Shown here piece by piece: positions 52,240 to 54,346 of a DNA stretch of 64,000 nucleotides. Source of the DNA: Ferrovibrio sp. (GTDB lineage Bacteria; Pseudomonadota; Alphaproteobacteria; Ferrovibrionales; Ferrovibrionaceae); assembly GCF_017994015.1 (NCBI RefSeq), contig NZ_JAGOLP010000005.1, positions 62,001 through 126,000 of the forward strand. The letters are read 5' to 3'. Numbering within the stretch: position 1 is the stretch's first letter; the number at the start of each line of letters is the position of its first letter. A program made the position numbers and the translations under genes. The notes under the pieces were generated by a model that worked only from the letters and a program-made list of their open reading frames with translations, ran no database searches and was not told the DNA's origin.

Positions 52240-53139
52240 ATGCAAAACCTTCTCACCCTGATCTCCGATCCACGCGGCGCCGTACTCAGCGAGCGTGTGG
52301 CCGGGGCGGTGCGCGATGCGCTGGCCATGGCCGGGGCGAAAGTCGGCCCGGCGGATTGGCTTGATCCCGGCGTGGCCTGCGACATTGCCTTCGACCGGCT
52401 GGCCGGCGAAGCGGCGGTGAAAGCCGCCAAGGTGGCCCTGCGCGGCGCCCCGGTGGACCTGCTGCTGCCGCCACTGGAAAACCGCCGCAAGCAGGTGCTG
52501 GTGGCCGATATGGAATCCACCATCATCCGCAACGAGATGCTGGATGAACTGGCCGAACTGGCACGCCTCGGCCCCGGCATCGCCGAGATCACCCGCCGCG
52601 CCATGAATGGCGAACTGGATTTTGAAGCCGCCTTGCGTGAGCGTGTTGCCCTGCTCAAGGGCCTGCCCGAAACCCTGCTGGCCCAGGCCGCCGGCCTGAT
52701 TCAGCCGATGCCGGGCGCCAAGGCGTTGCTCGGCACCCTCAAGGCGCATGGTGTCTATTGCGCCCTGGTCTCTGGCGGTTTTGATTATTTCACCGGCATG
52801 ATCAAAGACCAGTTCGGCTTCGACGAACACCAGGCCAACCATCTGGTGATAACCTTCGACAAGCTGGCCGGCAGTGTGCGCGAACCAATCCTGGGCCGCG
52901 AAGCCAAACTTGCCGCCCTCAAGCGCATCGCGATTGCGCAGAATGTGGAACTGGCTGATTGTCTCACTGTGGGCGATGGCGCCAACGATCTGGCCATGCT
53001 GCAAGCCGCCGGCATGGGCATCGCCTTCCGCGCCAAGCCGGTGGTGCGCGAACAGGCGCGTTTCTCGATCCAGCATGGCGACCTGACAGGGCTACTCTAT
53101 GCCCAGGGCTACAGGCGGGATGAAATCCTCGGCCGTTGA
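52240..53139 (+). CDS. serB: Phosphoserine phosphatase
   Basis: A 299-residue HAD enzyme, the last step of serine synthesis. The phosphorylation motif is DMESTIIRNEMLDELAE (DxxST type, about 88), SGGF with KLAAL give motifs II and III, and VGDGANDLAMLQAAG is motif IV. An N-terminal regulatory domain (about 1-85) is present. The start at 52240 is likely; an in-frame ATG at 52204 would overlap miaA. The TGA stop is embedded in a TTGACA promoter element for the next transcript. Confidence 0.93.
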   Translation: MQNLLTLISDPRGAVLSERVAGAVRDALAMAGAKVGPADWLDPGVACDIAFDRLAGEAAVKAAKVALRGAPVDLLLPPLENRRKQVLVADMESTIIRNEMLDELAELARLGPGIAEITRRAMNGELDFEAALRERVALLKGLPETLLAQAAGLIQPMPGAKALLGTLKAHGVYCALVSGGFDYFTGMIKDQFGFDEHQANHLVITFDKLAGSVREPILGREAKLAALKRIAIAQNVELADCLTVGDGANDLAMLQAAGMGIAFRAKPVVREQARFSIQHGDLTGLLYAQGYRRDEILGR

Positions 53140-53164
53140 CAGGCCGCCGCGGCCGCACTAGCTT
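53136..53164 (+). promoter_or_regulatory. Sigma-70-type promoter overlapping the serB stop
   Basis: TTGACA (53136-53141), a 17-bp spacer and TAGCTT (53159-53164) form a -35/-10 pair with a perfect -35. The expected start site, about 7 bp after the -10 box, falls at or next to the leader ATG at 53172. The leader message would therefore be leaderless, as known for trpL in Sinorhizobium. Confidence 0.7.
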
Positions 53165-53171
53165 TAACGCC

Positions 53172-53222
53172 ATGCACACCCGCGCCGTCTTTACGAACTG
53201 GTATTTTACGCTGCTCCCATAG
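53172..53222 (+). CDS. Aromatic leader peptide of a transcription attenuator
   Basis: The 16-codon frame reads MHTRAVFTNWYFTLLP. It has a run Trp-Tyr-Phe (53199-53207) with another Phe four codons earlier, and no ribosome site upstream. Its Trp-Tyr-Phe codons sit immediately beside the 5' arm of the 1:2 stem, which is the diagnostic arrangement for ribosome-mediated attenuation. It would sense Trp, Tyr or Phe charging. It is too short for ordinary gene calls. I do not recognise this exact peptide. Confidence 0.75.
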   Translation: MHTRAVFTNWYFTLLP

Positions 53223-53284
53223 CGGCGACGGTTCGTATGTGACAAACGACCCAATGCCGCCGCAGCCACCGGCGGCATTCGTGT
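53192..53284 (+). promoter_or_regulatory. Attenuator with competing 1:2, 2:3 and 3:4 stems
   Basis: Arm 1 TACGAAC (53192-53198) pairs with GTTCGTA in arm 2 (53231-53237). The 5' part of arm 2, GCGGCG (53222-53227), can instead pair with CGCCGC in arm 3 (53258-53263) as an antiterminator. Arms 3 and 4 form a perfect 10-bp terminator stem AATGCCGCCG/CGGCGGCATT (53253-53262 and 53270-53279), followed by CGTGTTTT. The stems exclude one another, as in trp-type attenuators. Confidence 0.72.
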
Positions 53285-53350
53285 TTTCAGACAATCCGAT
53301 GCTTCCGGCCTCCGGCGGAAAACCCACCGCTGACCCTGAGGAGAAGTATC

Positions 53351-53623
53351 ATGCCCACACTCACCGCCGATAACACCGCCCCGCTCGACCTGCCGCGCGA
53401 AGCCTTGCTGCATGGCATGGACCTAGTGGACCTGCTGGTTACTGCCCGGCTGGCCGATAACCGCAGCGATGCCCGCCGCCTGATCCGCACCGCCAAGGCG
53501 CGGCTCAATGGCCGCGTGGTGGCGCATGAAGGCGTTACCGCCGGGCTCGACGATCTGGACAAGAACGGCCTGCTGCGCCTGGCCACCGGCCAAAACCGCG
53601 AAAGACTGGTGCGGGCGGCCTAA
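53351..53623 (+). CDS. Free-standing S4-domain protein, like the tyrosyl-tRNA synthetase C-terminus
   Basis: A 90-residue protein behind a strong AGGAGA site. Residues about 24-57 (LVDLLVTARLADNRSDARRLIRTAKARLNGRVV) form an S4 RNA-binding motif very like the tRNA-binding tail of bacterial TyrRS, including the later LLRLATGQNRERLVRA segment. There is no catalytic domain. The gene is controlled by an aromatic-codon attenuator, which supports a link to tyrosine or aromatic metabolism. It could bind tRNA-Tyr, its own leader RNA or rRNA. Those roles are inference. Confidence 0.75.
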   Translation: MPTLTADNTAPLDLPREALLHGMDLVDLLVTARLADNRSDARRLIRTAKARLNGRVVAHEGVTAGLDDLDKNGLLRLATGQNRERLVRAA

Positions 53624-53632
53624 AATATCTTT

Positions 53633-53678
53633 TTGCTCATTTTATACATATCGTATAAAATAGACAAAATGATCATTT
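53633..53678 (+). promoter_or_regulatory. Promoter and operator of the Phd/PIN toxin-antitoxin operon
   Basis: TTGCTC (53633-53638), 17 bp and TAAAAT (53656-53661) form the promoter. A perfect 9-bp inverted repeat ATTTTATAC-N5-GTATAAAAT (53639-53661) covers the spacer and -10. A second palindrome AAATGATCATTT lies at 53667-53678. This layout fits autorepression by the antitoxin-toxin complex. Confidence 0.7.
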
Positions 53679-53691
53679 ACTGGAAGCAGTC

Positions 53692-53943
53692 ATGCGCACC
53701 ATCTCAGCCACCCAGGCCAAACAGGAATTTGCGGCATTGCTTGATGTCGCCCAGCACGAGCCGGTACTGATCCGGCGCCAGAAGCGTGATGTGGCGGTAT
53801 TGCTCTCGATGCGAGATTTTGAGGCATTGCGCGCCTATCGCTTGGAGGAATTGCGCCAACATTCAGAGCGGGTCGGCGCCCGTGCCGTAGCCGCCGGCTT
53901 GACCGAAGATAAGCTGGCGGCACTGCTGGCGGACGAGCGCTGA
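53692..53943 (+). CDS. Type II antitoxin, Phd/YefM family
   Basis: An 83-residue protein. RTISATQAKQEFAALLDVAQHEPVLIRRQKRDVAVLLSMRDFEAL (about 2-47) is the Phd/YefM DNA-binding fold. The C-terminal helix (about 50-80) would wrap and neutralise the toxin encoded next. The antitoxin probably represses its own operon through the palindromes upstream. Confidence 0.9.
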   Translation: MRTISATQAKQEFAALLDVAQHEPVLIRRQKRDVAVLLSMRDFEALRAYRLEELRQHSERVGARAVAAGLTEDKLAALLADER

Positions 53944-53944
53944 T

Positions 53945-54346
53945 GTGCGCTTTGTCCTTGATACCAATGTTCTGATCAGCAAATTCCTGCTTCCAGGCTC
54001 GGTGGCGGATCAGGCTTTCTGGAAAGCCAGCGGCCTTGGTACGTTGCTTATGAGCGAAGGAACTTTTGCCGAATTGAGTCAGGTGCTATTACGGCCGAAA
54101 TTCGACCGTTATGTTTCGCAGCAAGACCGCGCCACATTGCTTACGCTGATCGAAGACATCGCAGATTTCATTTCAGAACCACCTGAAATCCAGGCCTGCC
54201 GTGACCCACAGGACGACAAGTTTCTCAGCCTCGCTGTCGCAGGTTCAGCCGCTTGCATCGTCAGCGGCGATGCCTATCTGCTGGCACTGCACCCGTTTCG
54301 CGGCATCCCAATCCTAAAGCCGGCGACTTTCCTTGCAGATTTCTAA
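53945..54346 (+). CDS. PIN-domain toxin ribonuclease
   Basis: A 133-residue protein from a GTG start one base after the antitoxin stop. FVLDTNVLISKFLLPGS has the first Asp (about 5), a conserved Glu in EGTFAELSQVLLRPKF (about 42), and DPQDDKFLSLA (about 88-98) and VSGDAYLL (about 108) give the remaining acidic residues. It is the 'putative toxin, PIN family' group of metal-dependent RNases. The 3' end overlaps the convergent SDR gene by 4 bp. Confidence 0.9.
   Translation: MRFVLDTNVLISKFLLPGSVADQAFWKASGLGTLLMSEGTFAELSQVLLRPKFDRYVSQQDRATLLTLIEDIADFISEPPEIQACRDPQDDKFLSLAVAGSAACIVSGDAYLLALHPFRGIPILKPATFLADF

Follow-up and report, generated by a model that had tools for sequence, protein, structure and literature searches.

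Within the window, the whole stretch of 64,000 nucleotides analysed here, the gene for phosphoserine phosphatase, serB, ends at 53139 and is followed on the same strand by a short leader open-reading frame and the gene for a stand-alone S4 protein. The promoter that an earlier note on this DNA had read, a perfect TTGACA box with a −10 element spaced by 17 bp, is present at 53136-53164, at the end of serB, though its −10 box is weak; a simple promoter scan of the window did not list it, and relatives carry TTTAAT or TATAAA at the −10 position. As the spacer puts the expected transcription start at about 53172, on the A of the leader ATG, the leader ORF is predicted to be leaderless. The same note had described a 16-codon frame with contiguous Trp-Tyr-Phe codons, and this too was found, with TGG-TAT-TTT at 53199-53207. 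The coordinates of these features are collected in Table 1. Downstream of the S4 gene, genes for a Phd/YefM antitoxin and a PIN_3 toxin lie at 53692-54346 (+), and an AT-rich inverted repeat (TTTTATAC..GTATAAAA, 53640-53660) that precedes them could be their operator. A near-identical UBA7691 relative (L021, 3376-3627) has an antitoxin-sized ORF but apparently no PIN toxin gene, since the gap to the next gene is about 60 bases.

Table 1. Features of the leader and the S4 gene, in window positions
Feature	Position	Strand	Basis or remark
−35 box TTGACA	53136..53141	+	sequence; overlaps the serB stop codon
−10 box TAGCTT (weak)	53159..53164	+	17-nt spacer from −35; 3/6 consensus bases
Leader ORF MHTRAVFTNWYFTLLP followed by stop	53172..53222	+	16 codons; Trp-Tyr-Phe control codons 10-12
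Segment 1, CCGTC	53185..53189	+	pairs with GACGG 53227-53231 (stem 1:2); RNA folds
Segment 2, GCGGCGACGG	53222..53231	+	common to stems 1:2 and 2:3; partial-transcript folding with stalled ribosome
Segments 3 and 4, terminator hairpin AATGCCGCCG-CAGCCAC-CGGCGGCATT	53253..53279	+	sequence; covariation
T-rich tail of terminator, CGTGTTTT	53280..53287	+	retained in subclade A but poor in B
Ribosome-binding site of S4 gene, GGAGAAG	53340..53346	+	sequence; conserved in G003 and G009
Stand-alone S4 protein, 90 aa	53351..53623	+	derived from TyrRS C-terminal domain; profile, fold

The frequency of these elements within the 64 kb was compared with chance expectation. The pattern GCGGCG-N20-45-GCCGCCG-N3-12-CGGCGGC and the sequence TGGTAYTTYAC each occurred a single time (0.01 and 0.04 occurrences expected), the leader was the one frame among 565 short ATG ORFs with Trp, Tyr and Phe inside five codons, and it was among only six of the window's 2400 ATGs with TTGAC at −34 to −37. 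The earlier note had proposed a search of related genomes for the leader-S4 pair and had staked its reading on conservation of the codons and paired stems in homologous loci. In the genus sample of ten genomes, with Ferrovibrio among the named relatives, the aromatic-codon leader and a stand-alone S4 gene were paired in all ten, and codons and stems were both conserved. By DNA search the leader was detected in five of these genomes, exactly those with a close S4 homologue (subclade A); in the remaining five (subclade B) a wider S4 profile turned up a stand-alone but diverged S4 gene, in each case behind an aromatic leader. The subclade B leaders (MTHAANFYYWFIPSHTGGAQGFV, MTFAANYYYWFISSHTGGAQGFV, MTICAHQYYWFTPSHTGGALVIV, MIHAANYYYWFISSHTGGAQGFV and MTATYRFWHYFTPSHTGGALVIV), whose starts include MTHAANFYYWF.., MIHAANYYYWF.., MTICAHQYYWF.. 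and MTATYRFWHYF.., each keep the aromatic cluster, and control codons of the WYF or YYYWF type are clustered just before the switch in every leader of the genus. The subclade B S4 proteins are 29-34% identical to that of the window, and the gene surroundings of the pair differ between the subclades; in PRO18 the pair lies in another neighbourhood, away from serB. Across subclade A, the RNA from TGG through the terminator is almost invariant and the remainder drifts. The stand-alone S4 gene of this orphan type was found neither in the other genera of family f1 nor among 385 genomes of the class, bar a single case, G322:C50, which sits at the edge of a contig and was set aside, and nearly all of the other S4 profile matches listed lay in TyrRS-sized frames. 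At the level of sequence, the leader-S4 arrangement is thereby confirmed as real and above chance, with conservation across the genus as the decisive part.

Alternative stems that end in a terminator-like hairpin had also been claimed for the leader RNA, and they are present, with stem 2:3 as an antiterminator mutually exclusive with the terminator stem 3:4. Stem 2:3 joins GCGGCG (53222-53227) to the 5′ arm of the terminator, and the segment 1 arm is shifted in position in the folds of the PRO18 relative. When partial transcripts were folded with the ribosome halted near codon 11, segments 2 and 3 paired in nearly all of 15 leaders, and a ribosome placed at the leader stop hid segment 2. The energies of stem 2:3 were modestly better than those of shuffled sequence (z mostly −0.7 to −3.0). 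In equilibrium folding of the full leader the terminator won over 2:3 even with a stalled ribosome, so that the choice between them would have to be a kinetic one, like that of the trp system. The covariation check suggested for the stems gave, for stem 3:4, 13 doubly changed cells compared to 3.8 in shuffles, with 0 of 500 shuffles as high and lower values in slid controls; 93.6% of cells were paired, and the pair adjoining the core was seen as A-U, U-A and C-G, the six core pairs being invariant and thus uninformative for covariation. Termination is uncertain in subclade B, since the hairpins there are without a good U-tract and the leader ORF extends beyond segment 2, and the mode of control may differ from that of subclade A. 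In the leaders of this subclade (L142-L146), ACG replaces the subclade A leader stop and the frame reaches TGA past segment 2.

With its start about 110 nt past the serB stop and on the same strand, the hairpin might do no more than terminate serB at its 3′ end, with the leader ORF arising by chance. The leader-S4 unit, however, lies away from serB in PRO18 and in subclade B, the aromatic codons, the ATG and the TTGAC at −36 are conserved, and in other families this leader precedes genes of unrelated kinds, all of which makes a serB terminator exceedingly improbable.

Related leaders elsewhere in the alphaproteobacteria were collected with two covariance models, R1 built from five leaders and R2 from 18; although no subclade B sequence was used to train R2, an S4 leader of that subclade was among its matches (G006, E 9.5e-4). 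Full-length matches to R1 occurred in another family, f67, where 67 of 75 genomes match; at each of the 30 loci read, the leader is of the WYF kind and fits ..WYFTxL[TP] exactly or nearly. For most of these 30 a script located a GNAT-type ORF some 130 nt further downstream; in several loci it chose another frame or met the end of the contig. Two of the downstream proteins were confirmed as GNAT with Pfam. A GNAT gene behind the leader MIVPARATRWYFSATS was found with R2 in G013, a genome of the window's own family, and GNAT may be the more widespread target of the WYF leader. The loci in f67 and G013 at which this acetyltransferase family stands under a WYF leader are L076-L078, L112-L138, L177 and L181. 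R2 further found leaders before genes for class II DAHP synthase (frame ..GRFYDRWYIPAA) and class I DAHP synthase (MITVATSYFWYFSYDS..), before tyrA in two genomes (..GLYYAPLP and ..GLYYAASH..) and before tyrS (MTEMMHITAVYFARLP, in G226), these target names coming from a reading of the translated sequences and that of GNAT from a family search. The five loci (L183, L187, L184, L186 and L182) are candidate aromatic attenuators. The genes controlled by the leader family would be the S4 gene in the genus and those for DAHP synthase, TyrA, TyrS and GNAT in relatives, and the aromatic-pathway genes among them are the best indication of a leader that senses aromatic amino acids. In nearly all of 47 related leaders, TTGAC starts 34-37 nt 5′ of the leader ATG; the exceptions are L183 and L187, without TTGAC, and L076, with a second, nearer box. 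The tyrS genes read in the window's family showed no aromatic leader, and neither did the class II DAHP synthase gene of the host; a second hit (PF00793) has its start outside the stretch covered. Three matches to TGGTAYTTYAC-N8-CATAG over 385 genomes (L103, L110 and L111) were rejected as being without promoter or hairpins, and weak R1 and R2 matches (L079, L082, L084, L085, L188-L190, L192, L193 and L195) were rejected as unrelated hairpins.

The strong conservation of WYFTxL[TP], with WYFT near-invariant beside the stop in many leaders and encoded by near-invariant codons (TGGTATTTTACG), would also fit an arrest peptide that responds to a small molecule or antibiotic rather than to starvation. 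Subclade B, however, has YYYWF, FYYWF or FWHYF, and leaders elsewhere carry YY before tyrA, YF before tyrS and FYDRWY or YFWYF before DAHP synthase. As the aromatic clusters vary in this way among subclade B and relatives, the composition of the leader tracks the identity of the amino acids and no fixed peptide, and an arrest peptide appears improbable.

Given the conservation of codons, promoter geometry and stems in the genus, together with the recurrence of the leader before aromatic-pathway genes, a ribosome-mediated attenuator that senses aromatic amino acids is supported, and we consider the attenuator itself very probable. Transcription would start at the leader ATG. With charged tRNA available for Trp, Tyr and Phe, the ribosome would reach the UAG stop and cover segment 2, whereupon hairpin 3:4 would form and transcription would stop near 53285. 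When any one of the aromatic aminoacyl-tRNAs is short, the ribosome would be expected to stall at codons 10-12, leaving segment 2 to pair with the emerging segment 3, and with the terminator pre-empted in this way the S4 gene would be transcribed, that is, induced by starvation. The full explanation, in which a leaderless trp-type ribosome-mediated attenuator controls a one-gene unit for a TyrRS-tail-like S4 protein, is probable.

The product of the gene had been described as an isolated S4 domain resembling the TyrRS tail, with a ribosome site and without a catalytic domain, and this description is borne out by profile and fold, and by the GGAGAAG ahead of the gene. A profile search with the S4 family gave TyrRS 1h3e as its best match (E = 7e-5), and Foldseek with a model of the S4 protein (pLDDT 76, from an alignment that included TyrRS tails) returned TyrRS structures as all of its top 19 matches. 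The window's protein matched S4 and SYY_C-terminal in Pfam, both below cut-off, as were the NCBIfam matches, and AlphaFold on the single sequence produced a poor all-helix model. As judged by sequence and predicted fold, the orphan S4 protein is a TyrRS C-terminal domain. An Hsp15/HslR-type identity was rejected, as the orphan is without the MRLDKWL-type S4 start; a separate frame of the genus (G007:C18, L070), called Hsp15-like from reading its sequence, has that motif. The likeness to the TyrRS tail, and the existence in G226 of a tyrS gene with a related leader, would also fit a decaying tyrS fragment behind an old tyrS attenuator. The S4 gene, however, is kept in 10 of 10 genomes under purifying selection (dN/dS about 0.14-0.42), the domain comes with a start codon and a ribosome site of its own, and an intact tyrS without an obvious leader lies elsewhere in the host. 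An origin of the S4 gene from tyrS is possible; decay does not fit the evidence and is very improbable.

It had further been proposed that the S4 protein binds RNA or tRNA under aromatic starvation, and a starvation-induced protein with the tRNA-Tyr binding of the TyrRS tail would agree with the shared domain and with the basic character of the window's copy (pI 9.9, core charge +4). In Bacillus TyrRS, the lysines of the GKKxH motif are reportedly implicated by mutagenesis in binding of tRNA-Tyr. This motif is near-invariant in 23 TyrRS tails, and both lysines and the histidine are absent in all nine orphan sequences examined. The window's copy is, moreover, the sole basic version: the net charge of the core is 0 or −1, and the predicted pI of the whole protein 4.8-6.1, in the other eight of the nine. 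With the lysines lost throughout and eight sequences neutral or acidic, tRNA binding is doubtful. The proposal is therefore unsupported as it was worded and, on these sequences, weakened; a protein partner or an altered RNA target is as likely as tRNA binding, and a tRNA-Tyr-binding role of the kind described above appears unlikely.

What the S4 protein does can be suggested only tentatively; the proposal we favour is that, as a diverged mimic of the TyrRS tail, it adjusts the tyrosine-charging step or translation in aromatic starvation, with a protein partner or an altered RNA target as the means. A more speculative proposal, by analogy with HisZ and HisG, is that the mimic, having lost the lysines that contact tRNA, works by way of a partner protein when aromatic amino acids are scarce, the partner perhaps being TyrRS or an aromatic-pathway enzyme. 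The GNAT protein of f67 would then be another effector in a single response of alphaproteobacteria to aromatic starvation. A single leader family that reads three aromatic amino acids and is tied to both an orphan TyrRS tail and GNAT would point to an aromatic-starvation response that has not been described, and the orphan S4 protein would be a naturally occurring example of an appendage domain that has left its synthetase and come under control of the amino acid signal proper to that enzyme.

Biosynthetic operons and synthetase genes are the known targets of attenuators. In a literature search for which subscription journals were largely beyond reach, we came across no account of the WYF leader family, the leader-S4 pair or an attenuated orphan TyrRS tail. 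The earlier note's view of the circuit as undescribed thus appears to hold for the leader-S4 pair and does not hold for the attenuator mechanism, for leaderless leaders or for leader-controlled synthetase paralogues, all of which are known: the switch mechanism is classical and its S4 target is new. At the gathering score, Rfam gave only a tRNA across the window, with no T-box or other riboswitch, and the leader's best match, Phe_leader (RF01859; 17.4 bits, E 1.5), falls below the gathering score of 55, so that the leader is not a member of that family. The match nevertheless spans the full length, and the two share aromatic codons and mutually exclusive stems. The established leaderless leader is the trpL attenuator of Sinorhizobium meliloti (rnTrpL/peTrpL; PMC10117765, PMC7298713), which resembles the window's leader in its ORF at the transcription start, its control codons, its terminator and its dependence on the ribosome; unlike trpL, with Trp codons only, the window's leader mixes Trp, Tyr and Phe and has a non-biosynthetic gene as its target. 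The orphan shares fold and core residues with the TyrRS C-terminal S4 domain (1h3e, 2jan, 1jh3) and differs from TyrRS in having neither catalytic domain nor GKKxH, and in its loss of net positive charge in eight of nine sequences. In bacilli, leader peptides with cognate codons precede the synthetase paralogues hisZ and hisS* (Naville and Gautheret 2010, PMC2965389), just as the window's leader precedes a synthetase-derived gene; there, however, a HisRS-like paralogue is controlled and one amino acid is read, whereas in the window the tail domain alone remains.
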